Shown: in pieces, positions 53,118-64,000 of the stretch
Position numbering within the stretch: the stretch's first letter is position 1
How the letters are laid out: every line of letters starts with the position of its first letter
From: Bacteroidota bacterium
GTDB lineage: Bacteria; Bacteroidota; Bacteroidia; UBA8524
Length of the DNA: 64,000 nt
Direction: 5' to 3'
NCBI GenBank assembly: GCA_016124735.1
Contig: WGMZ01000010.1
Span: 62,001 to 126,000, forward strand
Translations under genes and position numbers: made by a program
Notes under the pieces: model-generated
The model's database searches: none
Told to the model about the DNA's origin: nothing
What the model saw: only the letters and a program-made list of their open reading frames with translations

Positions 53118-54602
53118 ATGAAGGATATTTCCTTAAAGAGTAAAACAGGGTTTCTGCTATTCTGTTTGCTCTTACTTGCAATAATTAGTCGCATACCCCT
53201 CCTCTATCCTGACAGAATGATTTTGGATGGAGATGAGGCCTTGATGGGACTTATGAGTATTCACCAGATTGAATTGGGCGAAATCCCCTGGTATTTCTGG
53301 GGACAACAGTATGGATTCACTCTGATCGAAGTAAGTAGTATCAGCGTTTTTCATCTGCTATTGGGCTACAATGATTTGGCTGTGAAATTAGGGATGATGC
53401 TTATCTGGCTCCTCGCTCTCACTGGTGCTTTTCTCTTTTTGAAAGAAAAATTAGGCCGGCAATGGGCTTTCGTGGTTGTGTTGCTCTTTGTACTTCACCC
53501 TGTCTGGTTTTACTGGAGTTTAAAAGCACGAGGTGGTTATCTTACTGCCTTGATGCTTAGTTCCTGGCTTTTCTATTTCGCGAGCATTCATCGACGTATA
53601 CCTGCAGTATCGCAAGGGTTGATTCAAGGTATTGGTCTTGCCGTGATATTTCATTCGATGAAACTTTGGTTTCCATCCAGTGTTGTTTTGGTTTTTGGGC
53701 TTCTTTGGCCCATGCGAAAAAAATGGACCCTTGGAGCAAGTATGCTGGTTTCAGGAATACTGAGTCATATTGCCTTGCATCAAATTTCCTTGCAAAATCC
53801 CGATTACTGGAATCCTCATGTGGTAGATATCGATTTGCTATGGCATAATTTAATTTCCATGCGCGAACGCCTTCGCCACATGTTTGAAGGGAATTATTTT
53901 CTTGGCGACTTCTACCCGATATTTAACTGGACCTTTATCGCATGGGAAGTTGTGAAATACGCTTTTCTGGTAAGTTTAGCTTTCTCTCTTCTTCAATTCC
54001 GGGAGAATTTACGCTCTGTTGAATTTTGGGCATTGACTCTGGCAACTGCAATCCCATTAGGAGTGATGCTCATTTCTCCCATGTTCTTCAGTCCGCGATA
54101 CCTGCTTCCTTTTCCTTTATTCCTTTTTATGTGGTGCGCCTGGCAATGGAAAAATTTCCGCTATACCCGCCTTCTCCGTATAATTTGGATTCCAATGGCT
54201 CTGGCTATTTATGCCGGAGCCTGGCAATTAACCCAAACTGATTATTATAAAAGGGAAGCCGAAGAAAAAATCATCCGGAATGATGCTGCGCATTTATTAA
54301 TTGAGAAAGATTACACCTATGTATTATGTAACGTTGCTGAACTGCATTGGCAATTGATGTATTACAGCGGTGGGAAATTGGTTTGTACCGGAATTTATCC
54401 GCACGATCGCCTTCAGGAGCTGGCCAGCTCAGTTAGACAGGCATACTGGGACGGAGAAAAGGTCATTGCTGTTTCCAGCGACAACCAGGAATACAGGCAC
54501 ATGCAAGACAGCATGATTCAGGTTGGCGGATTATGGATGCTGCCCAAACCCCGGTTGGAAGACTTGGAAAAAATGGGCTTCGAAATGCGCGTCATGTATT
54601 GA
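53118..54602 (+). CDS. GT39-like polytopic glycosyltransferase
   Basis: A 494-residue membrane protein with about ten TM helices and a soluble C-terminal part (about 380-494). The first extracytoplasmic loop carries acidic residues (MILDGDEALMG, residues 34-44) of the kind used by ArnT/PMT-type GT-C enzymes, which take sugar from a lipid phosphate donor. The substrate cannot be told. It is divergent from msrB with 30 bp between starts. Confidence 0.75.
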   Translation: MKDISLKSKTGFLLFCLLLLAIISRIPLLYPDRMILDGDEALMGLMSIHQIELGEIPWYFWGQQYGFTLIEVSSISVFHLLLGYNDLAVKLGMMLIWLLALTGAFLFLKEKLGRQWAFVVVLLFVLHPVWFYWSLKARGGYLTALMLSSWLFYFASIHRRIPAVSQGLIQGIGLAVIFHSMKLWFPSSVVLVFGLLWPMRKKWTLGASMLVSGILSHIALHQISLQNPDYWNPHVVDIDLLWHNLISMRERLRHMFEGNYFLGDFYPIFNWTFIAWEVVKYAFLVSLAFSLLQFRENLRSVEFWALTLATAIPLGVMLISPMFFSPRYLLPFPLFLFMWCAWQWKNFRYTRLLRIIWIPMALAIYAGAWQLTQTDYYKREAEEKIIRNDAAHLLIEKDYTYVLCNVAELHWQLMYYSGGKLVCTGIYPHDRLQELASSVRQAYWDGEKVIAVSSDNQEYRHMQDSMIQVGGLWMLPKPRLEDLEKMGFEMRVMY

Positions 54603-54693: not shown

Positions 54694-56211
54694 ATGGCTA
54701 ATAGAGCAACCCAATCCCTTACTGCGGGTATGAAGATTTTAGGCGGAGCGAACTTACCTACCTATACCCTTGAATATCTTTCTCAATCCTCCAAACATGC
54801 TCAGGGCAGTTACGAGACCATCGTGATTCCATATATTGAACTCGGACGAAGTTCAAAGTGCGGCGTTCAATTTGGAGATGATACCCCAACTGTGAGTCGC
54901 AGACACTGCGCCATTGAGCGGAAAGGAGCGGAAATCAGCGTATTGAATCTTTCGACGTCCAATCCAACATTGGTCAATGGCCGTCCGATTACGGACAAAT
55001 ATTTTTTGAATAACGGAGATGAAATTCAACTTTCTGCCGAAGGACCAAAACTGCGATTTAATACAACCAAAACAGGTACTGCCAAAATTGGATTTACCAA
55101 TAAGATGAACCTGGTGATGCAACAGGCAATCAAGCCCTATAAAACTGCTGCTGTTACAATCCTATGTTTGTTTTTAATCGCCATTGCGGGAGGCTCATGG
55201 GCCCTTGTCAATCTGAATAAACAAACAGAAGTACTCACGGTTCTGACCAACCAGCAAGCCGATTCGATGGCGGCCCTGAATGCTAAAAATCAGGCTTTAT
55301 CTTCTTTGATGAAAGAATCGGATGAGAAACTCAAAGCAGAACAAGATCGATTGATGCGTGCAAACCGGGGTTTGGTTACCGAAATCAGTGAGTTAAGAAA
55401 AAAGAACGCCGAGGTAATGGAGGCAAACAAGTCGGGCGCCGAATTAATCGAACCCCTGAAAGGATATGTTCTTGCTCTCTTTTTAAATAAAATGACGGTC
55501 GAATACCAGGGAGAGTCAGAATCCTATGATTTGGGAAGCCAATGCATGTGTACCGGTTTCTTAACAAACGATGGAAATTTTGTAACTGCCCGTCATTGCA
55601 TCGATGCTCCTCTTACAGATGATGAAATGGCTAATTTCATTGAGAACAGCGGAGGAAGAGTCACTTTGCATTATACCGCCATGTCTTATGACCGAAGCAT
55701 TCGTTTTGATTTTACCAATAAACAAATGACTGCAGACTTCACAAAAGATGAAAAATATCAGCATACCCTTCAGGGTATTTCAGGGTCAGTGCGTGTTCCG
55801 GACTATTTTTCAGGAGCAGACTGGGCCTACCTTCCAGTCAATATCGAAGGAGGTTTACCCTTCGATAAAGGTTTATCGAAAAACCTCAAATCCGGTGATC
55901 GCCTTATTGTCCTGGGATATTCCTACGGTATGTCTTACCGCAAAGATGGCAATCTCGAACCCTATTATTCTACTGCAAATGTTGCATTGAGTGGTTTGCA
56001 TAACCAAACCATTCAAACTTCGGAAGCCGGGTTCGACGGTGGAAACTCCGGGGGGCCGGTATTCGTGGTAAGAGATGGAAAAATTCAATGCGTTGGTATT
56101 GTAACCGGAAAATGGCGAAAACCCGAAATTACGGTCACGCAAAGTGGTGGAAAAACACAAACCATGGTAGATGCCAATATTCAAATCGTGACGCCACTCG
56201 GAAATTTCTAG
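54694..56211 (+). CDS. FHA-TM-trypsin-like serine protease
   Basis: A 505-residue fusion. The N-terminal FHA domain (about 24-125) has GRSSKC (Arg52, Ser53) and the SRRH motif (68-71) that binds phospho-Thr, plus VNG. One TM helix (about 151-173) follows, then a coiled coil (about 175-245), and a chymotrypsin-fold protease (about 280-490) with a complete triad: His301 in TARHCID, Asp376 in GADWAY, Ser452 in GGNSGGP. The topology implies a cytoplasmic reader and a periplasmic protease. It starts the phospho-signalling operon, 91 bp after the GT39-like gene; the weak box ATAATTTG at 54663-54670 may serve as promoter. Confidence 0.9.
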   Translation: MANRATQSLTAGMKILGGANLPTYTLEYLSQSSKHAQGSYETIVIPYIELGRSSKCGVQFGDDTPTVSRRHCAIERKGAEISVLNLSTSNPTLVNGRPITDKYFLNNGDEIQLSAEGPKLRFNTTKTGTAKIGFTNKMNLVMQQAIKPYKTAAVTILCLFLIAIAGGSWALVNLNKQTEVLTVLTNQQADSMAALNAKNQALSSLMKESDEKLKAEQDRLMRANRGLVTEISELRKKNAEVMEANKSGAELIEPLKGYVLALFLNKMTVEYQGESESYDLGSQCMCTGFLTNDGNFVTARHCIDAPLTDDEMANFIENSGGRVTLHYTAMSYDRSIRFDFTNKQMTADFTKDEKYQHTLQGISGSVRVPDYFSGADWAYLPVNIEGGLPFDKGLSKNLKSGDRLIVLGYSYGMSYRKDGNLEPYYSTANVALSGLHNQTIQTSEAGFDGGNSGGPVFVVRDGKIQCVGIVTGKWRKPEITVTQSGGKTQTMVDANIQIVTPLGNF

Positions 56212-56212
56212 G

Positions 56213-56986
56213 ATGATAAAGACAAAACTAGGACTGCTGTTTCTATTCCTCTTCCTGTTTTCCGCCGGGGAGGGACAAATCTTGCGAATTAATAACGAAT
56301 GCAATCCTCTGGTATCCTCGCTTCAGGACATCGTTTATATTGTCAGACAGGAGTACGCTTTGAAGGGGCCGGATGGAGAACTGTACGGACAAAATAATCA
56401 GGAGTATTTTGGATTTCGCTATGGGGTTGCACTCTTGTGGAATGAACAATTATACATGAGTCCGGTAACTTATTATGCCTATCAGCGCGACACGGTAGCC
56501 TCGACCTACGGTGCAGGTTATGTTGGTGTTCCCAGCTCCAGCTATTTCCGTCATATTGATGCCCCTGTATTTACCAAAATCAACCCCGAAGCATTAACTG
56601 CAAATCCAGAGCGTGTTTTGGCAACGATGGAAGATAGCCTGAGTGGCATGCAAGACACCGGGACATCCGAGGGTTTTAAAAGTAAAACCATACTGATAAC
56701 AATCGAATGTAAGGATGAGGTACCTTCAGATACATCTCAGTACAAATTGAATTTTCTGTATACCGACCTTATTACAGAACCCAATGGCAGCATTCATATA
56801 AAAGGGAACACCCTTGGGAGTCATGTTCAGTTTGCACTGATTTTTGAAGAAATCACCGAAGTGGGGAGTGCAAAACTGGAATTTCTCGGTTTTGCGGAGA
56901 CGATAAATAATGAAGTGAAAGTCAATTTGGTCAAAGTAGATCAAATTGATCATCAAAAGAAAAAAGGAAAAGGTAACAAAAAGTAA
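56213..56986 (+). CDS. Exported protein of unknown function in the signalling operon
   Basis: A 257-residue protein with a signal peptide (about 1-21, FLFSAGEGQ). No catalytic or binding motif is recognised; the mature part has many Tyr and Thr and looks beta-rich, ending with a Lys-rich tail (KKKGKGNKK). The gene starts 1 nt after the FHA-protease stop and ends in the TAATG shared with the PP2C gene. Tight coupling suggests that it works with the protease or a membrane partner, possibly as a substrate or periplasmic sensor, but this is inference. Confidence 0.75.
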   Translation: MIKTKLGLLFLFLFLFSAGEGQILRINNECNPLVSSLQDIVYIVRQEYALKGPDGELYGQNNQEYFGFRYGVALLWNEQLYMSPVTYYAYQRDTVASTYGAGYVGVPSSSYFRHIDAPVFTKINPEALTANPERVLATMEDSLSGMQDTGTSEGFKSKTILITIECKDEVPSDTSQYKLNFLYTDLITEPNGSIHIKGNTLGSHVQFALIFEEITEVGSAKLEFLGFAETINNEVKVNLVKVDQIDHQKKKGKGNKK

Positions 56987-58485
56987 TGGCACTAAAATTT
57001 ACGCTTTTTGGCAATACGAATGTGGGAAGCGTTCGCGACCACAACGAAGACAACTTTACTGTTTGTTCTGATTTATCGGAAAACATCTGGAGTTTTTCCA
57101 AAGATGAACCGAGATCCTTATCTAAAAAAGGAGCCTTGTTGGTTGTTGCCGATGGCATGGGCGGAACCAATGCCGGTGAAGTGGCTTCCGACATTGCGCA
57201 ACAAAGTGTAAGAGAATCCTTTGTGTCTCTTAAGGACATTCCCCAAAGCCAAAAAGAGCGAGAAAATTTTCTCAAGAAGTGCATTCTGGATGCACACCAG
57301 AAAATTGTAAAACACCAGGAAGAAAATCTTGAAACAGCCGGAATGGGAACCACTCTGGTGATTTCGTGGATTATCGATGATATGTTACATACCGCCTGGA
57401 GCGGAGACAGTCGCTGTTACCTTTTCGATCCCGGACAGGAGTTGGAACCATTTTCAGAAGATCACTCGCTTGTTTGGGATCTGGTAAAAAAGGGAGACAT
57501 GACCCCCGAAGAAGCCCGCACGCATCCCAATAGCAATATCATCAATCAAAGCCTCGGAGATCCAAAGAGCACCCCTCATCCGGATGTCAAAAGCAGAAAA
57601 CTGTATCAGGACAGTCGTGTCCTCGTTTGCAGCGATGGATTGAATGGAATGTTGAGCGATGCGGAGATACAGTCCTATCTGGAAAACAGCGAAGACGTAG
57701 AACAAGCCTGCAGAAAGTTGGTCGACGCCGCAAACGAAGCAGGAGGACATGACAATATTACGTGCCTGCTCATGGAAGTCAAAGAGGGAGAAAAAGCCCC
57801 TGTGGGCGGCATTCCCACTTCCCGAAGCACCCCCACTCCTACCGGGAAACTGCGAAAAAAGGTAAAAACCAATTACGCCATTATCGGAGTTTTGCTTGTC
57901 ATAGTTGCGGTGCTGCTCTACTACCTGGCAGGCCCAAAATCAGATTCACCCAAACCTTTGTCCGCACCCGGTGCGCAACAACTTGAAATCTTCCCGAGTA
58001 AAGATTTCAATTTGGAGATGAATCATTGGAGCCACTCCATTACTGATATATCCGGAATCCGCTGGAAAAATGGAAATTATGAAATAGAAGGTACCACTGT
58101 TGTGTTAAAAAGTCCCATTCATCTGGAAGACACCTTATTTGTTCTCTTCCATACGAACGACGAAAAAGGAAGTGACGAACGTGCTTTTATCTTTACGGCA
58201 ATAGAAGGTAGCGATTTGAATTCCGACCGAAGCTCAGGGTCGGACATTGAATCTCAATCGGATGCTCCGGCAAGAAACAATGGATCAGAAACGACTCGTC
58301 CTGAGGCACCAGTTTCCACCACACCAGTCCAAAATACAGAAAGGAATCCAGTGAATCCCGTAGTGAAGCCAGACACAAGTACCAGCTCACCTGTTACTCC
58401 CCCAATTACGAAACCAGATACCACAAAAACGGGCCCCAGCCGACCTATTTTGAACCCAATCAATCACATAGACACCAGTAAATAA
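56986..58485 (+). CDS. PP2C-family Ser/Thr phosphatase with TM and extracytoplasmic part
   Basis: A 499-residue protein. The PP2C domain (about 1-265) has the metal Asp residues: DHNEDNF (Asp22), VVADGMGGT (Asp55, Gly56), SDGLNGML and GGHDNIT. One TM helix (about 297-316) follows and then about 180 residues, of which 330-415 look folded and the rest is a Pro/Thr/Ser-rich tail. The C-terminal part would be outside the cytoplasm, which fits a phosphatase controlled from the envelope. It dephosphorylates Ser/Thr sites made by the two kinases downstream, by inference. The 56986 ATG overlaps the previous stop (TAATG). Confidence 0.93.
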   Translation: MALKFTLFGNTNVGSVRDHNEDNFTVCSDLSENIWSFSKDEPRSLSKKGALLVVADGMGGTNAGEVASDIAQQSVRESFVSLKDIPQSQKERENFLKKCILDAHQKIVKHQEENLETAGMGTTLVISWIIDDMLHTAWSGDSRCYLFDPGQELEPFSEDHSLVWDLVKKGDMTPEEARTHPNSNIINQSLGDPKSTPHPDVKSRKLYQDSRVLVCSDGLNGMLSDAEIQSYLENSEDVEQACRKLVDAANEAGGHDNITCLLMEVKEGEKAPVGGIPTSRSTPTPTGKLRKKVKTNYAIIGVLLVIVAVLLYYLAGPKSDSPKPLSAPGAQQLEIFPSKDFNLEMNHWSHSITDISGIRWKNGNYEIEGTTVVLKSPIHLEDTLFVLFHTNDEKGSDERAFIFTAIEGSDLNSDRSSGSDIESQSDAPARNNGSETTRPEAPVSTTPVQNTERNPVNPVVKPDTSTSSPVTPPITKPDTTKTGPSRPILNPINHIDTSK

Positions 58486-58493
58486 AAGCGAAT

Positions 58494-59231
58494 ATGAGAT
58501 GCAAGGAATGCGGATACATGAATGATGATCAGGTAACTTCCTGTATAAAATGCGGAACGGAACTGGAGAAAAAATTGTCCGAACCAGTCGCCGAAGCACC
58601 TGCGAAGGAAACAGATGCCGAAGGCAATAAAACGGTACAAATTAAACAAGAGGGAGAAGGTACACCCACCGTAAAATTAGACATGAACCAACCTCCAGCA
58701 TCCGGCATTCCCACAATCAAAGGGAAACCCGTCGATTCAGAGCCCTGGAACGGAGACCGCAATAAGCCAGGCGAAAGGAAATCAGAAGAAAAGAAACATA
58801 CGTATTTCACCTGCAGCAGCTGCCAGTACTACCCGCTGCAGGAGCCCCCTTCCGCACTACAACCTTGTCCGAATTGTGGATTTGGAGCGGTAAAAGTAAA
58901 GTCACCTGCACCCGGCACACAAAAACTTAGTGATATCAATCTTGGTGAACCCGAGTATCAGGTTGTGTTAATCGACGGTGATTCTAAAAAGGTTTTTGAA
59001 CTGAAAGATGGAGAAACCCGGGTAAACCGGGAGAATCTTGATGAAAACAATAAAGCGATTTCCAGCGATAAGCATGCCTTGTTTCATTTGGAAAATGGCG
59101 AATTATTCCTGAATGATGAAAGTAGCAATGGTGCCACTTTTATTCAGGTCAATGGAAAAGTAAAAGTGGAAAGCGGGATGAAAATTATCCTCGGAAATAA
59201 AATTGTGGAAGTCAGGTTAGAAGAAAAATAA
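58494..59231 (+). CDS. Double zinc-ribbon and FHA protein
   Basis: A 245-residue soluble protein. The N-terminal ribbon CKECGYMNDDQVTSCIKC uses Cys3, 6, 17 and 20; a linker (about 25-100) is rich in Pro, Lys and Glu; a second ribbon has CSSC and CPNC (about 106-128); and the FHA domain (about 170-245) carries RVNREN, SSDKH and SSNGATF. It is likely an adaptor that binds phospho-Thr peptides and perhaps nucleic acid or other proteins through the ribbons. It starts 8 nt after PP2C and ends in TAATG shared with the kinase gene. Confidence 0.85.
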   Translation: MRCKECGYMNDDQVTSCIKCGTELEKKLSEPVAEAPAKETDAEGNKTVQIKQEGEGTPTVKLDMNQPPASGIPTIKGKPVDSEPWNGDRNKPGERKSEEKKHTYFTCSSCQYYPLQEPPSALQPCPNCGFGAVKVKSPAPGTQKLSDINLGEPEYQVVLIDGDSKKVFELKDGETRVNRENLDENNKAISSDKHALFHLENGELFLNDESSNGATFIQVNGKVKVESGMKIILGNKIVEVRLEEK

Positions 59232-60541
59232 TGTCGGCTCCGGAAGTCATTTATATCGAAAAAGGGTCGGTGATTGAATCCTCCACCAAAAGATACCTGG
59301 TTGAAAAGCTGCTGGGCGAGGGAGGATTTGGCAGCGTTTACCGGGTCAACGATGGGCAGCATTCCTATGCTCTGAAAATCACCAAGATGTGGACCTTTAT
59401 GCCAAACGAGAGGCTCGAATATGCCAAGCGATTCAAACAGGAGTTCGAATATGGTTCTGAATTGCAAAGTCAATACCTGGTGAAGAGCTACGATTATGCC
59501 CTGGCGAATGGAAATCCTTTTCTCGCTATGGATTTGTGCAGCGGCGGCTCTGTTCGTGACTTGATCGGCAAACAAAATTCTCCGCAGACCATTGACAAAG
59601 TGGCTTATGGTATTCTATGCGGATTAAGAGACCTGCATGCGCAAGGAATCATCCACCGCGATTTGAAACCAGAGAACATTCTGTTTGATGAGAAGAAGAC
59701 TCCCAAACTATCTGACTTTGGCATTTCTGCTTCCATTAAAAAAAGACATACCGTGGCTAACTTTTTGGGACATGCCAAGGAAGTTTTTGCCACCGGAACC
59801 TATTCTCCTCCCGAGCAAATCGACCCACGCCTTGCCATGAAGGTAATGGGACCGGGAAATGACTTTTTTGCTTTCGGGGCCTTGATGTATGAGCTGCTTA
59901 CCCAGGGGAAATTTCCGTTTGGAGACTTTGAGTCGTTCATGGATAATATGCCTGCCTACGAAAAGCGGAAGAAAAACGAAGAGTGGGATCACAGTGCACT
60001 GGACCTTGCGGGAGTTGAGCCTAAATGGAAAGAAATTATTGGCACCTGCCTGCGAGCCAAACCGGAAAACCGGTATCAATCTGCAGATGAAATACTTTCC
60101 GCACTTGGATTTAAACCAGAGAGTTCTCGAAAGCTTATTCCTGTATTGCCCGACAGTCAATGGAAATTAGTGATAATGAATGGCGAAGAAATTGGCCGTT
60201 CCTATTTCATCTCCAACTTGCTGGGGCGAAAAAATGAACCAACCCTGACCATCGGTTGGTTTAATGAAGAAGATCCATTTACCAATGATATTGGTATTGC
60301 AGAAAATTTCACGGAATACATTTCCAACTACCACGCAACTCTGGAATACCGGGAAGAAATCAACCACTTTAAAATTAAAGATGGACAATACCGGAACAAA
60401 GACGGTGTGTCCAAATGGTATTGTTCAACCAATGGATTGTTGGTGAATGGGAAAGTAGTAGATGAAACCGGAATAATTCTCGAACCAGAAGACATAATTA
60501 CAATTGGCGATAGTACCCTTAAATGCACCTTAATAGAATAA
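59231..60541 (+). CDS. Ser/Thr protein kinase with C-terminal FHA
   Basis: A 436-residue protein. The kinase domain (about 20-290) is canonical: GEGGFGSVY, Lys49 in YALKI, HRD at 142-144 with HRDLKPEN, DFG at 162-164, and the SPPEQ segment. The FHA domain (about 325-436) has GRKNEPTLTIGW, NYHATLEY and STNGLLVNG. No TM is present, so it should be cytoplasmic. The FHA may bind its own autophosphorylated Thr or the partner kinase. Overlap of 1 nt with the zinc-ribbon gene. Confidence 0.93.
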   Translation: MSAPEVIYIEKGSVIESSTKRYLVEKLLGEGGFGSVYRVNDGQHSYALKITKMWTFMPNERLEYAKRFKQEFEYGSELQSQYLVKSYDYALANGNPFLAMDLCSGGSVRDLIGKQNSPQTIDKVAYGILCGLRDLHAQGIIHRDLKPENILFDEKKTPKLSDFGISASIKKRHTVANFLGHAKEVFATGTYSPPEQIDPRLAMKVMGPGNDFFAFGALMYELLTQGKFPFGDFESFMDNMPAYEKRKKNEEWDHSALDLAGVEPKWKEIIGTCLRAKPENRYQSADEILSALGFKPESSRKLIPVLPDSQWKLVIMNGEEIGRSYFISNLLGRKNEPTLTIGWFNEEDPFTNDIGIAENFTEYISNYHATLEYREEINHFKIKDGQYRNKDGVSKWYCSTNGLLVNGKVVDETGIILEPEDIITIGDSTLKCTLIE

Positions 60542-60548
60542 AGAACCT

Positions 60549-62507
60549 ATGAATGTTTATAATCCCAATGATGTGTTTGCTAACCGGTATCTCCTGATTG
60601 AAAAAATCGGTATTGGTGGATTCTCGGAAGTCTGGAAAGCCAAGGATCAAATGGCTGAAGACACAGTCGTTGCAATAAAAATTTATGCCCCTGAAAGAGG
60701 GATGGACGAGTTAGGGCTCAAGCAGTTCAGACGTGAATATGCTGTGGTCCTCAATCTCAACCATAGAAATTTATTGACTGCCCGCCATTTTGATGTATTC
60801 AATGACAGTCCATATCTGGTGATGCCATTTATTGATGGAGGTTCAGTTTATACCGATATGATGGGAAACGGCCCGTGGTCGGAAGAGAAAATGGCCAAGC
60901 TGATGCTCCAAATGGCAGATGCATTGGATTTTCTTCACGACCACGATGTGCTTCATCAGGATATTAAACCAGACAATATTCTCATCGATAACCGGGGCGA
61001 TTATCTGTTAACAGATTTTGGGATCAGTTCCCGACTCCGGAGCAGCCTGAGAAAAAGCACTACAACAGGAAAAGCCATGACGGTGGCCTATGCTCCACCT
61101 GAAAGATTTACCGGCAAACAGGAAGCCCAACCAGCCGGAGATATTTTTTCATTCGGTGTGTTACTTTATGAACTTTCTGTAGGCGACGTTCCCTGGATGG
61201 GCGCCGGAGGAGTGGTAGTCAAAGGAGACTCGGATCCAATCAGCCTGCCCGATAACTATTCCAATCGATTCCAGAAAATAGTGCAGGCCTGTTTGCGCTA
61301 TCTCCCCGAAGAAAGGCCCTCTGCCGAAGATTTAAGAAACTGGGCACAGGAATTTATGCGGGAAGGAGCCTGGCCGATAATTCCCGAACCCAAATCAGGT
61401 GAAAGCGTATCCAAACCTCTGAAACGTGGCAGAAGTACACAACGAATGGATGATACTCCATTTTCGGAATTGGAATCTGCCAAAAACATCAAACAATCTG
61501 GTAAGGAAGCTGCAACCATGAAACAGGGAAGCGGGGCATCTTTACCAAAAGAACCCAAAAAGAAAAAAACTGCGATGATGGCCGTTGTGATTATTATCGT
61601 GCTCATTGCAGCAGCAACAGCTTTCATTCTAATGCAAAAAGAAGAGCCGGAAGTACTTGCTGTCACTCCGGTAAATTCTGATTCACTGCGCTACGATTCA
61701 CTGATGCACTCGGCAGATAGCCTTTACGCTCTGTCAGATTTTCCAGCAGCTAAGTCCATGTATGAAGCCGCCAGTTCCCTGATACCGGGAGATTCAATGG
61801 CTAACCTGGGAATTAATAATTGTATTCATGAACTCGAAAATATAGCCTTTCGGGATAGTGCCATTCAGGACAGTATCCATTTGGCAAGCACACAAACTCC
61901 AAAAACAACACCTGTAACTCCGCCACCGACTACCAAACCAAAAAAACAGGAAGAAGTGCGCAAACCCACAGAAGAAGAACTGCGCCGAGAGCGCTTAAAA
62001 GGACTGGAAGGAAAAAATGACGGGAGAAAAAATAATCTCTATGACCTTACCGATATGTATTCCCGAGGGAACCGCTACGATTTCAAAGGCGACGTGAGCA
62101 ATGGAAAACCCAATGGATACGGCATCGCTTACTTTGATGATGGAGAACGCTATGAGGGAAATTGGGTCAATGGAGTGCGCACCGGCATGGGTAAATATAT
62201 TTTCTCAGACGGCACCACCTACAATGGAGAATGGAAGAACGACCAATTCAATGGCAAAGGAAAGATGGTCTGGACCAACGGGGATGAATACGAGGGGAGT
62301 TATTTGGATGGGGTTCGCCACGGAATGGGAACTTATGTAACAGGCGGCGGTGATATTCGAAACTGCCCGGATTGCAAAAAATACCAGGGCTACTGGAAAA
62401 ATAACGACAAAGATGGATTTGGAAAATGCTTCGATAAAAAGGGAGCTTTGCTCTATGCCGGAGATTATTCAAATGGAAAACCGATCGGTAAGTACCCGAA
62501 TCGGTAG
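60549..62507 (+). CDS. Ser/Thr protein kinase with TM and MORN repeats
   Basis: A 652-residue protein. The kinase domain (about 13-275) has GIGGFSEVWK, Lys44, the catalytic loop HQDIKPDN (His136, Gln137, Asp138; Gln instead of Arg) and DFG (156-158), with PPERF. A basic Ser/Thr-rich linker, one TM helix (about 342-360) and a Pro/Thr/Lys linker with TPR-like helices follow. The C-terminus (about 510-645) has MORN-type repeats such as YDFKGDVSNGKPNGYG, YEGNWVNGVRTGMGKYIF and YNGEWKNDQFNGKGKM. The MORN part would be outside the cytoplasm and may sense lipid, wall or protein. 7 nt after the FHA kinase. Confidence 0.92.
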   Translation: MNVYNPNDVFANRYLLIEKIGIGGFSEVWKAKDQMAEDTVVAIKIYAPERGMDELGLKQFRREYAVVLNLNHRNLLTARHFDVFNDSPYLVMPFIDGGSVYTDMMGNGPWSEEKMAKLMLQMADALDFLHDHDVLHQDIKPDNILIDNRGDYLLTDFGISSRLRSSLRKSTTTGKAMTVAYAPPERFTGKQEAQPAGDIFSFGVLLYELSVGDVPWMGAGGVVVKGDSDPISLPDNYSNRFQKIVQACLRYLPEERPSAEDLRNWAQEFMREGAWPIIPEPKSGESVSKPLKRGRSTQRMDDTPFSELESAKNIKQSGKEAATMKQGSGASLPKEPKKKKTAMMAVVIIIVLIAAATAFILMQKEEPEVLAVTPVNSDSLRYDSLMHSADSLYALSDFPAAKSMYEAASSLIPGDSMANLGINNCIHELENIAFRDSAIQDSIHLASTQTPKTTPVTPPPTTKPKKQEEVRKPTEEELRRERLKGLEGKNDGRKNNLYDLTDMYSRGNRYDFKGDVSNGKPNGYGIAYFDDGERYEGNWVNGVRTGMGKYIFSDGTTYNGEWKNDQFNGKGKMVWTNGDEYEGSYLDGVRHGMGTYVTGGGDIRNCPDCKKYQGYWKNNDKDGFGKCFDKKGALLYAGDYSNGKPIGKYPNR

Positions 62508-62548
62508 AGGAATACGATATTTGAATTTATTAGATAAAAGCTATTCTC

Positions 62549-63085
62549 ATGAAAACCAGATTCATTGTCTTTCTGATTCTTATCTGCCTGGGCTCCGTCT
62601 CTCATGCTTCAGAAAATGGAATACGTGCGGGCTGGCAAATTGCAGCGACCTACAATGGTCTTAGCCGTGTGAATGGCCCCATTTCCGGAATCTACGCAGG
62701 GTTTTACCATATTTCCTATCCTTTGGGAGTCAAATTTATTGGTATTCAATCCGGACTCGAATTTTGTCAGGTTGGATACCGGAAAGATTCAGAAAATTAT
62801 CGCCAACAGAATTATCTCGGTATTCCCGTAAGCCTTCGGATTAAAATGGGCCCTATTTACCTGATTGGGGGAATCGAAGGGAATGTCAAAATCACTGAGA
62901 AAAATGTGGTGAACGGAAGCGTGGTGAGCGACAAGAGTAGCTTTTTTGATGCCCATACTCATGCCGGGGTCGGATTTAAAATTGGCAGTTTTTCAATTGA
63001 AGGACGTTATCATCAGGGATTGGTCGATATCAATAAAGGAAACAAAACAGATTACCTGCAATTGGGCGGCACATTCACCTTTTAA
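62549..63085 (+). CDS. Outer-membrane beta-barrel protein (PorT-like)
   Basis: A 178-residue protein with signal peptide (MKTRFIVFLILICLGSVSHAS) and alternating amphipathic strands, an eight-strand OM barrel by appearance, ending in the aromatic C-terminal strand LQLGGTFTF. It starts 41 nt after the MORN kinase, so it is plausibly the last gene of the operon. Its 3' end is 2 nt from the end of the convergent caspase gene. Confidence 0.8.
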   Translation: MKTRFIVFLILICLGSVSHASENGIRAGWQIAATYNGLSRVNGPISGIYAGFYHISYPLGVKFIGIQSGLEFCQVGYRKDSENYRQQNYLGIPVSLRIKMGPIYLIGGIEGNVKITEKNVVNGSVVSDKSSFFDAHTHAGVGFKIGSFSIEGRYHQGLVDINKGNKTDYLQLGGTFTF

Positions 63086-63087
63086 AC

Positions 63088-64000
63088 TTATTTCAATTTC
63101 AGGAGTAAGAGCTCGTTGATTTCTCTTAACAGGTGATCGACATCTCCTCCTTTCACTACTATTTCTTGTTTGTAATACAGAGATTCATCCAGAAGAATCA
63201 CCACGAGACAGGATAATTTTCCGTTCCTTTCCTGATAACTCAACTTCACTTCGTAAGCTCCTGAAACCAATCCTCGGGCGAATTCAAAAGGGTTGTCGGC
63301 CTTTTCGGAAACATCCCTCAGGAAGTCATTGAGTTGATCTTTCAGGTGCAAATTATCGCCATAGGTATCCTTGTTCGATGCATCCGAACATAATACCATG
63401 GGCTTATTGATTGGCAATTCGATTAATTCGCGAATGCTGTCGGTAACAAAGCCAATGCACAAGTTCGTTGTTCCGAAGGGTTGTGCATTCTGATCTTCAC
63501 CATAGCGTTCACTCACTACTTTTAATTCATTCTCTGTCGCATCAAACCAGCGGGTCAGGTTCAAATAACCCCGATCTTCCAAAATCGTGGTATTGGACTT
63601 CAATGATTTAAGCAAGCAATAAGTAAGTAATCCATGTTCAAGCATCGGTTTTTCATAGGCAGATTGATCCGGAGAACATGCACTCATTATAACCAAACCC
63701 GCTTTATCCTTGAGGTCTTCCAATTGCCTTATCCTATGCGTATTGGATTCTACGTACATCAGGGATGCCTGCAATTCCTTATTGGCTTGTCCGCTATTGC
63801 ATGCATCGAATATCAGTACTGTTTTATTGGCCTTAAAATGATATGGCCCCTCCTGACTCAACCACGATTTTAAGTCGACCGTGCTGATCCCAATAAATTC
63901 CTGCCGGGTCGCTTCAGCAGTTAGCAGGGTATATTTTTGATCCACCAATCCTTTCATTTCTCCGTGACCGGCAAAGAAAAGCAGCACCACATCCTGTGGA
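63088..64000 (-). CDS. Caspase-like cysteine peptidase (C14), N-terminus outside window
   Basis: A partial protein of at least 304 residues; the frame is open through the right edge (continues as PQDVVLLFFAGHGE). The caspase pair is clear: catalytic His in FFAGHGE and catalytic Cys in FDACNSGQ, followed by SACSPDQSAYE, with the C-terminal part (about 150-300) of no known domain. It is likely a metacaspase or caspase homologue acting in stress, defence or signalling. It is convergent with, not part of, the kinase operon, and its upstream gene is not visible. Confidence 0.85.
   Translation of the reverse strand, partial: PQDVVLLFFAGHGEMKGLVDQKYTLLTAEATRQEFIGISTVDLKSWLSQEGPYHFKANKTVLIFDACNSGQANKELQASLMYVESNTHRIRQLEDLKDKAGLVIMSACSPDQSAYEKPMLEHGLLTYCLLKSLKSNTTILEDRGYLNLTRWFDATENELKVVSERYGEDQNAQPFGTTNLCIGFVTDSIRELIELPINKPMVLCSDASNKDTYGDNLHLKDQLNDFLRDVSEKADNPFEFARGLVSGAYEVKLSYQERNGKLSCLVVILLDESLYYKQEIVVKGGDVDHLLREINELLLLKLK

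Follow-up and report, generated by a model that had tools for sequence, protein, structure and literature searches.

A conserved six-gene set of Bacteroidota joining Hanks kinases, a PP2C phosphatase and FHA domains to a predicted periplasmic protease

The DNA analyzed here (hereafter the window) comprises 64,000 nucleotides of a Bacteroidota bacterium of the UBA8524 lineage (assembly GCA_016124735.1, contig WGMZ01000010.1, positions 62,001 to 126,000 of the forward strand; genome G000), and near its end six genes, which we designate A to F, follow one another on the + strand between positions 54694 and 62507 (Table 1). Sequence comparison across the phylum indicates that A–F almost certainly constitute a conserved gene unit, and we judge the chances about even that this unit is a self-contained transmembrane (TM) phospho-switch which gates a periplasmic protease. 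The core of this proposal is protein A: In every full-length homologue the predicted topology places an FHA domain in the cytoplasm, followed by a TM segment, a coiled coil and a trypsin domain in the periplasm. The kinase F and the phosphatase C are each predicted to carry one TM segment and an exported tail, D and E to be soluble, and B to be exported and tied to A. A preliminary description of the window had proposed that phosphorylation in the cytoplasm controls periplasmic proteolysis via the FHA-TM protease; the predicted topology, the intact phosphothreonine-binding motif and the intact catalytic triad of every full-length homologue are consistent with this, and the regulatory steps themselves are what we infer from them.

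The strongest evidence for a unit is its recurrence. A was searched in 60 relatives and in 395 genomes of the class, a profile of the C-terminal region of E retrieved genome G140 from the class sample and then seven further genomes of the order of G140, and a broadened A profile run over 396 genomes of the phylum added two more (G849, G810). In total, 15 genomes have the A–F set clustered, with partly shuffled gene order; they span two classes of Bacteroidota and at least four orders. A and C occur in all 15, D and E in 14 (G276 having a truncated locus), B in 13, F in 12, and a pair of MotA/ExbB-like and MotB-like genes accompanies the set in six. D and E are adjacent in every case, and B, whose assignment in the most divergent genomes relies on position and alignment, lies directly downstream of A whenever it is present, with the qualification that in G603 it succeeds a trypsin paralogue of A. 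This paralogue, A2, is an exported trypsin-only protein devoid of FHA and TM segments that directly follows A and suggests a protease cascade in that relative. The order of the window is retained in the congeners G001 and G002 as A-B-C-D-E(-F), the contig of G002 stopping within E, and in G517. In G038 and G252, which belong to another order, a MotA/ExbB-like gene and one that combines a MotB-like N-terminus with a vWA domain lie ahead of the six genes. In G276, of the same order as G038, a divergent A-B-C is located where the contig ends. Rearranged versions are C-D-E-A-B-F (G418), F-x-D-E-A-B-C (G498), D-E-MotB-MotA-A-B-x-C-F (G410), C-D-E-MotB-MotA-A-B (G419), D-E-A-B-C-FHA-F (G526), D-E-A-A2-B-C-F-F (G603) and, in G849 and G810 from the other class, MotA-MotB-A-C-D-E-F. 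The additional FHA protein of G526, situated between C and F, has C-terminal TM segments.

The distribution is sparse: A is lacking in G003 and G004, both members of the family of the window, and the prevalence of the set amounts to a few percent at most, a rough figure from partial genome sampling. A tight profile of clade I (defined below) returned only four loci from 84,980 named species genomes, all from uncultured metagenome-assembled genomes (MAGs), including Bacteroidia bacterium QJ.21 and UBA8524; likewise, all carriers with names are MAGs. A well-supported deep split, common to the A, C and E trees, separates clade I (G000, G001, G002, G038, G252, G517, G849 and G810) from the rest. 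Because clade I mixes orders and classes, these phylogenies suggest that the set has been transferred as a unit. A chance neighbourhood of unrelated signalling genes, which does describe the adjacent barrel and caspase genes, has next to no probability left for A–F: Co-clustering in 15 genomes despite shuffling, together with the common split of three trees, excludes it. The preliminary description had named the clustering of seven genes in other genomes as its own test, which A–F passed and the barrel gene did not. Its second expectation, conserved overlaps, holds only locally: The 1-nt D/E overlap is found in three congeneric genomes and the 1-nt B/C overlap in G000, G001 and, by coordinates, G276.

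Table 1. Positions of the genes discussed; plain coordinates refer to the window, those with a prefix to other loci, and topologies are predicted.
Feature	Position	Strand	Length	Description
A	54694..56211	+	505 aa	FHA-TM-trypsin protease (Pfam FHA 52 bits, Trypsin_2 35 bits); FHA residues 49-113, QQAIKPYKTA 143-152, TM 154-172, coiled coil, chymotrypsin-fold protease ~258-505
B	56213..56986	+	257 aa	exported protein with signal peptide; no known family, no Pfam match
C	56986..58485	+	499 aa	cytoplasmic PP2C phosphatase (Pfam PP2C), TM 298-316, Pro-rich exported tail
D	58494..59231	+		soluble; two zinc-ribbon CxxC pairs, C-terminal divergent (weak) FHA with Arg179 and Ser191 kept
E	59231..60541	+	1311 bp	soluble Ser/Thr kinase (HRD, DFG intact) with C-terminal FHA; Pfam Pkinase and FHA
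F	60549..62507	+	1959 bp	TM kinase (HQD/DFG), TM 343-361, exported C-terminal region with 4 MORN; Pfam Pkinase and MORN
G	62549..63085	+	178 aa	exported barrel-like protein, no Pfam match; outside the conserved set
WD40-caspase, C-terminal part	63088..64000	-	~300 aa	runs beyond the window; outside the conserved set
WD40-caspase, full gene	L003:13089-16856	-	1255 aa	
Multi-TM protein	53118-54602		494 aa	no Pfam family
MotA/ExbB-like and MotB-like pair	L049:10765-12335			
MotA/ExbB-like and MotB-like pair	L050:10679-12312			
MotA/ExbB-like and MotB-like pair	L045:8094-9721			
MotA/ExbB-like and MotB-like pair	L040:8151-9832			
MotA/ExbB-like and MotB-like pair	L011:8300-10113			
A2 of G603	L042:8203-9141			
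E of G410	L040:9846-11131			split by a frame change
FHA protein of G526	L041:4248-5144			
Type VI secretion locus of G140	L028 (G140:C1:322000-341000)			

Within the window, the open reading frame table and Pfam agree with the seven + strand genes and domains that had been described between 54694 and 63085. The tight spacing described for them applies to A–F, where it amounts to +1, -1, +8, -1 and +7 nt, and does not extend to the barrel gene G, which stands apart from F by 41 nt. A scan for consensus promoter sequences gave no excess that would point to a conserved promoter.

Conservation in A concerns precisely those elements that the proposed switch would need. The catalytic triad H301/D376/S452 is unchanged in every aligned full-length homologue, and the phosphate-binding FHA residues (G51 R52, S68, H71) are invariant across them, so that A has the Arg, Ser and His of the binding site that characterize a canonical phosphothreonine reader. 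A single TM segment is located at an equivalent spot (residue ~154–194) in 12 of 12 scored homologues, and a cytoplasmic juxtamembrane motif, QQAxxPYK, is present in nearly all of them. In A, C and F, basic residues immediately precede the TM segment, which fits an N-in/C-out topology. The N-terminal tail of A matches that of G038 at 21 of 22 residues but at only 8 of 22 third codon positions; the latter being free, the tail is selected as protein, and its interpretation as a conserved DNA element was rejected.

The remaining components are retained to different degrees. C possesses the metal-binding Asp motifs of PP2C phosphatases, scores 224 bits against a Stp1-like NCBIfam model, slightly below the cut-off of 230, and has its TM segment, placed directly behind the catalytic domain, in 13 of 13 scored homologues. 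Homologues of D keep the FHA Arg and, in all but the shortest, the two zinc-ribbon CxxC pairs, and lose the FHA His outside clade I. HRD and DFG are present in E of every carrier except for the homologue in G140; in G410, E is interrupted by a frame change that is either real or an assembly error. F has HQD more often than HRD, and one TM segment directly succeeds its kinase domain throughout, with the exceptions of G498, where a simple scan detects none, and of the truncated F of G418. Its exported part varies between MORN repeats (genus of the window), an ankyrin-containing region (G038), Sel1 (G517), TPR (G410) and a carboxypeptidase-regulatory-like domain (G810). For B, searches against PDB sequences gave no match and the structural model no significant fold match; weak Foldseek matches to Deg9/HtrA (TM-score about 0.25) had hinted at a pseudo-trypsin, a candidate that we discarded as profile comparison with A did not support it.

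Moreover, the set seems to bring its own phospho-signalling. In G000, FHA domains above the Pfam cut-off occur only in A and E, and strong full-length Hanks kinases are limited to E and F, next to one further weak partial match; E and F are also the sole kinases above the cut-off in G001, G252 and G517, whereas G003 and G004, which lack the set, have no strong full-length kinase at all. Writers and readers of the phospho-code thus arrive together with the cassette as one circuit. Other carriers, G410 and G419 among them, encode many more kinases besides those of the set.

On this basis, the switch could operate as follows: The variable exported domain of F would sense a condition of the envelope and set the activity of the F kinase; a domain that varies while the kinase domain stays constant is what one expects of a sensor. 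The soluble kinase E may amplify the signal from F. The FHA domain of A would then bind phosphothreonine, carried either by D, E or F or by the N-terminal tail of A itself, and this docking could gather or reorient A via the juxtamembrane motif and the coiled coil, thereby turning on the protease in the periplasm. B may be a dedicated partner of the protease, be it as inhibitor, adaptor or first substrate, and C, residing in the same membrane, would reset the switch. In relatives, a link between the assembly and the proton gradient may be provided by the MotA/ExbB-like and MotB-like genes.

Several observations weigh against this mechanism. The FHA domain of E is, judged by its residues, degenerate in the clade of the window: It reads IGW for IGR, a Trp thus replacing the phosphate-binding Arg, in five aligned clade-I genomes, that of the window among them; the sequences of G849 and G810 likewise read IGW/VGW, and the others retain Arg. 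Of the three FHA readers named in the preliminary description, A has an intact motif and E lacks the phosphate-binding Arg. G849 and G810 lack B, and no F was detected next to the set in G419. Models obtained with AlphaFold2 (AF2) are of low confidence: That of A (pLDDT 46) is uninformative because the input alignment is shallow, and that of B (pLDDT 65) is beta-rich. Finally, the direction of control could be the reverse, with the protease acting upstream of the kinases.

An origin outside envelope proteolysis is conceivable as well. A–F might be an offshoot of the threonine-phosphorylation pathway of the type VI secretion system (T6SS), in which F would correspond to PpkA, C to PppA, and D and A to Fha scaffolds of a large envelope complex, the protease trimming or clearing the envelope rather than being the main output. 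The two systems are alike in encoding together a TM kinase with an exported domain, a PP2C phosphatase and an FHA protein, and PpkA-Fha forms membrane condensates in Acidovorax (PMC12607579). Moreover, a homologous D-E pair and a TM kinase lie within a Bacteroidota T6SS cluster of G140, beside genes for a PAAR-toxin and for TssK-like and TssF-like proteins and about 13 kb from TssD. In G140, E is a pseudokinase whose FHA retains its Arg; it thereby mirrors E of the window, which combines active-type kinase motifs with a degenerate FHA. As a side observation, the zinc-ribbon-FHA protein, the pseudokinase-FHA protein and the TM kinase of this locus, which are homologous to D-E-F or resemble them, adjoin a PAAR-like (DUF4280)-Ntox46 protein. 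We nevertheless consider this origin unlikely: Among seven genomes tested for TssD (PF17642), only G140 was positive and the six cassette genomes G000, G001, G002, G038, G252 and G276 were negative, which also led us to reject a T6SS in the genome of the window. The T6SS proteins of G140 have no matches in the cassette loci L039–L045, and A, present at all other loci, is absent from that of G140, neither A nor C being found in the stretch examined. The A–F set further differs from PpkA-PppA-Fha in its apparent output, the FHA-TM-protease, in the membrane anchor of its PP2C and in the addition of a soluble kinase-FHA protein, a zinc-ribbon-FHA protein and B.

Similarly, we regard as improbable a role in anti-phage defence or abortive infection, whereby kinases triggered by infection would switch on the membrane protease in the manner of KKP or of Zorya-type motors with an effector. 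The sparse distribution and the mixing across classes suggest horizontal transfer, six genomes contain the MotA/MotB-like pair, and the order PP2C, FHA-kinase, kinase on one strand resembles that of KKP (PfkA/PfkB/PfpC; PMC11341870), with D intervening in A–F. Orthologues of A or E, however, were not found in plasmid or phage collections or in viral contigs, where only generic kinases appeared; PADLOC matches are generic ones to kinases or proteases, and neither PADLOC nor NCBIfam assigns the window genes to a specific system. In KKP, the second kinase has a cold-shock domain (PF00313) and the kinase genes measure 900–1300 bp (Guo et al. 2024, PMC11341870). We rejected membership in KKP since neither E nor F matches the cold-shock domain and both genes are longer (Table 1); in addition, F is a TM protein and A–F adds D, A and B. 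The likeness to Zorya, GldLM and TolQR-type proton channels is confined to relatives: The pair was not found in the locus of the window, and the MotB-like protein of relatives ends in a vWA domain in G038 and G252 and elsewhere in a domain that bears a W..DVDLH motif and is unclassified, with no OmpA match.

Operons with kinase, PP2C, zinc-ribbon, vWA and trypsin domains also occur among the conflict systems of Kaur et al. 2020 (PMC7159879), but no VMAP, MoxR, GTPase or EAD was recognized in A–F, and the sections of that paper considered here do not mention an FHA-TM-trypsin protein. Other close literature comprises work on TssW-PpkA-Fha (PMC12607579), a survey of kinase architectures (PMC1262709) and one of PP2C phosphatases (PMC12088040). 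A description of the full A–F set was not found in the literature, with supplementary files and subscription journals outside the search, in agreement with the preliminary description, whose author knew of no such system.

As a TM-anchored chymotrypsin-fold protease directed toward the periplasm and equipped with an H/D/S triad, A resembles HtrA/DegS and MarP. It differs from HtrA/DegS in that it has no PDZ match and in that the place of the periplasmic sensor is taken by a cytoplasmic FHA domain together with a kinase/phosphatase set; its score against the NCBIfam MarP model is 13 bits at a cut-off of 250. For the known bacterial envelope proteases of the DegS/HtrA kind, control comes from the periplasm, and the described kinase/PP2C/FHA modules have cytoplasmic targets or serve T6SS assembly (PMC12607579). 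We propose tentatively, at somewhat less than an even chance, that A–F represents a new type of transmembrane signalling, in which phosphorylation by Hanks kinases is read by an FHA domain fused across the membrane to a periplasmic protease, with B as partner and a proton-channel pair in relatives. If true, A–F would be the equivalent, based on Ser/Thr phosphorylation, of two-component or DegS-type envelope signalling, running from inside to outside. A conserved protein with its phosphothreonine reader on one side of the inner membrane and its protease on the other would open the inside-out control of periplasmic proteolysis to direct tests. How such circuits are rewired is illustrated by the parts having been shuffled independently and by the reuse of D-E with a dead kinase beside a T6SS.

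The genes flanking A–F do not belong to the set. Upstream, 91 nt from A, lies the gene of the multi-TM protein, which is kept within the genus (G001, G002) and not in other carriers. Downstream, G001, G038 and G252 have neither a homologue of G nor a caspase gene beside F, for which reason we rejected both as members and with them the notion that two protease types are a property of the set. The caspase gene does meet the operon tail to tail, as had been described; what the window contains, however, is the end of a separate, much longer WD40-caspase gene that terminates 2 nt past the stop of G. The window part alone scores 46.6 bits against the EACC1-associated caspase model NF047832 (cut-off 140), and the protein carries the His (FAGHGE) and Cys (DACNSG) motifs.

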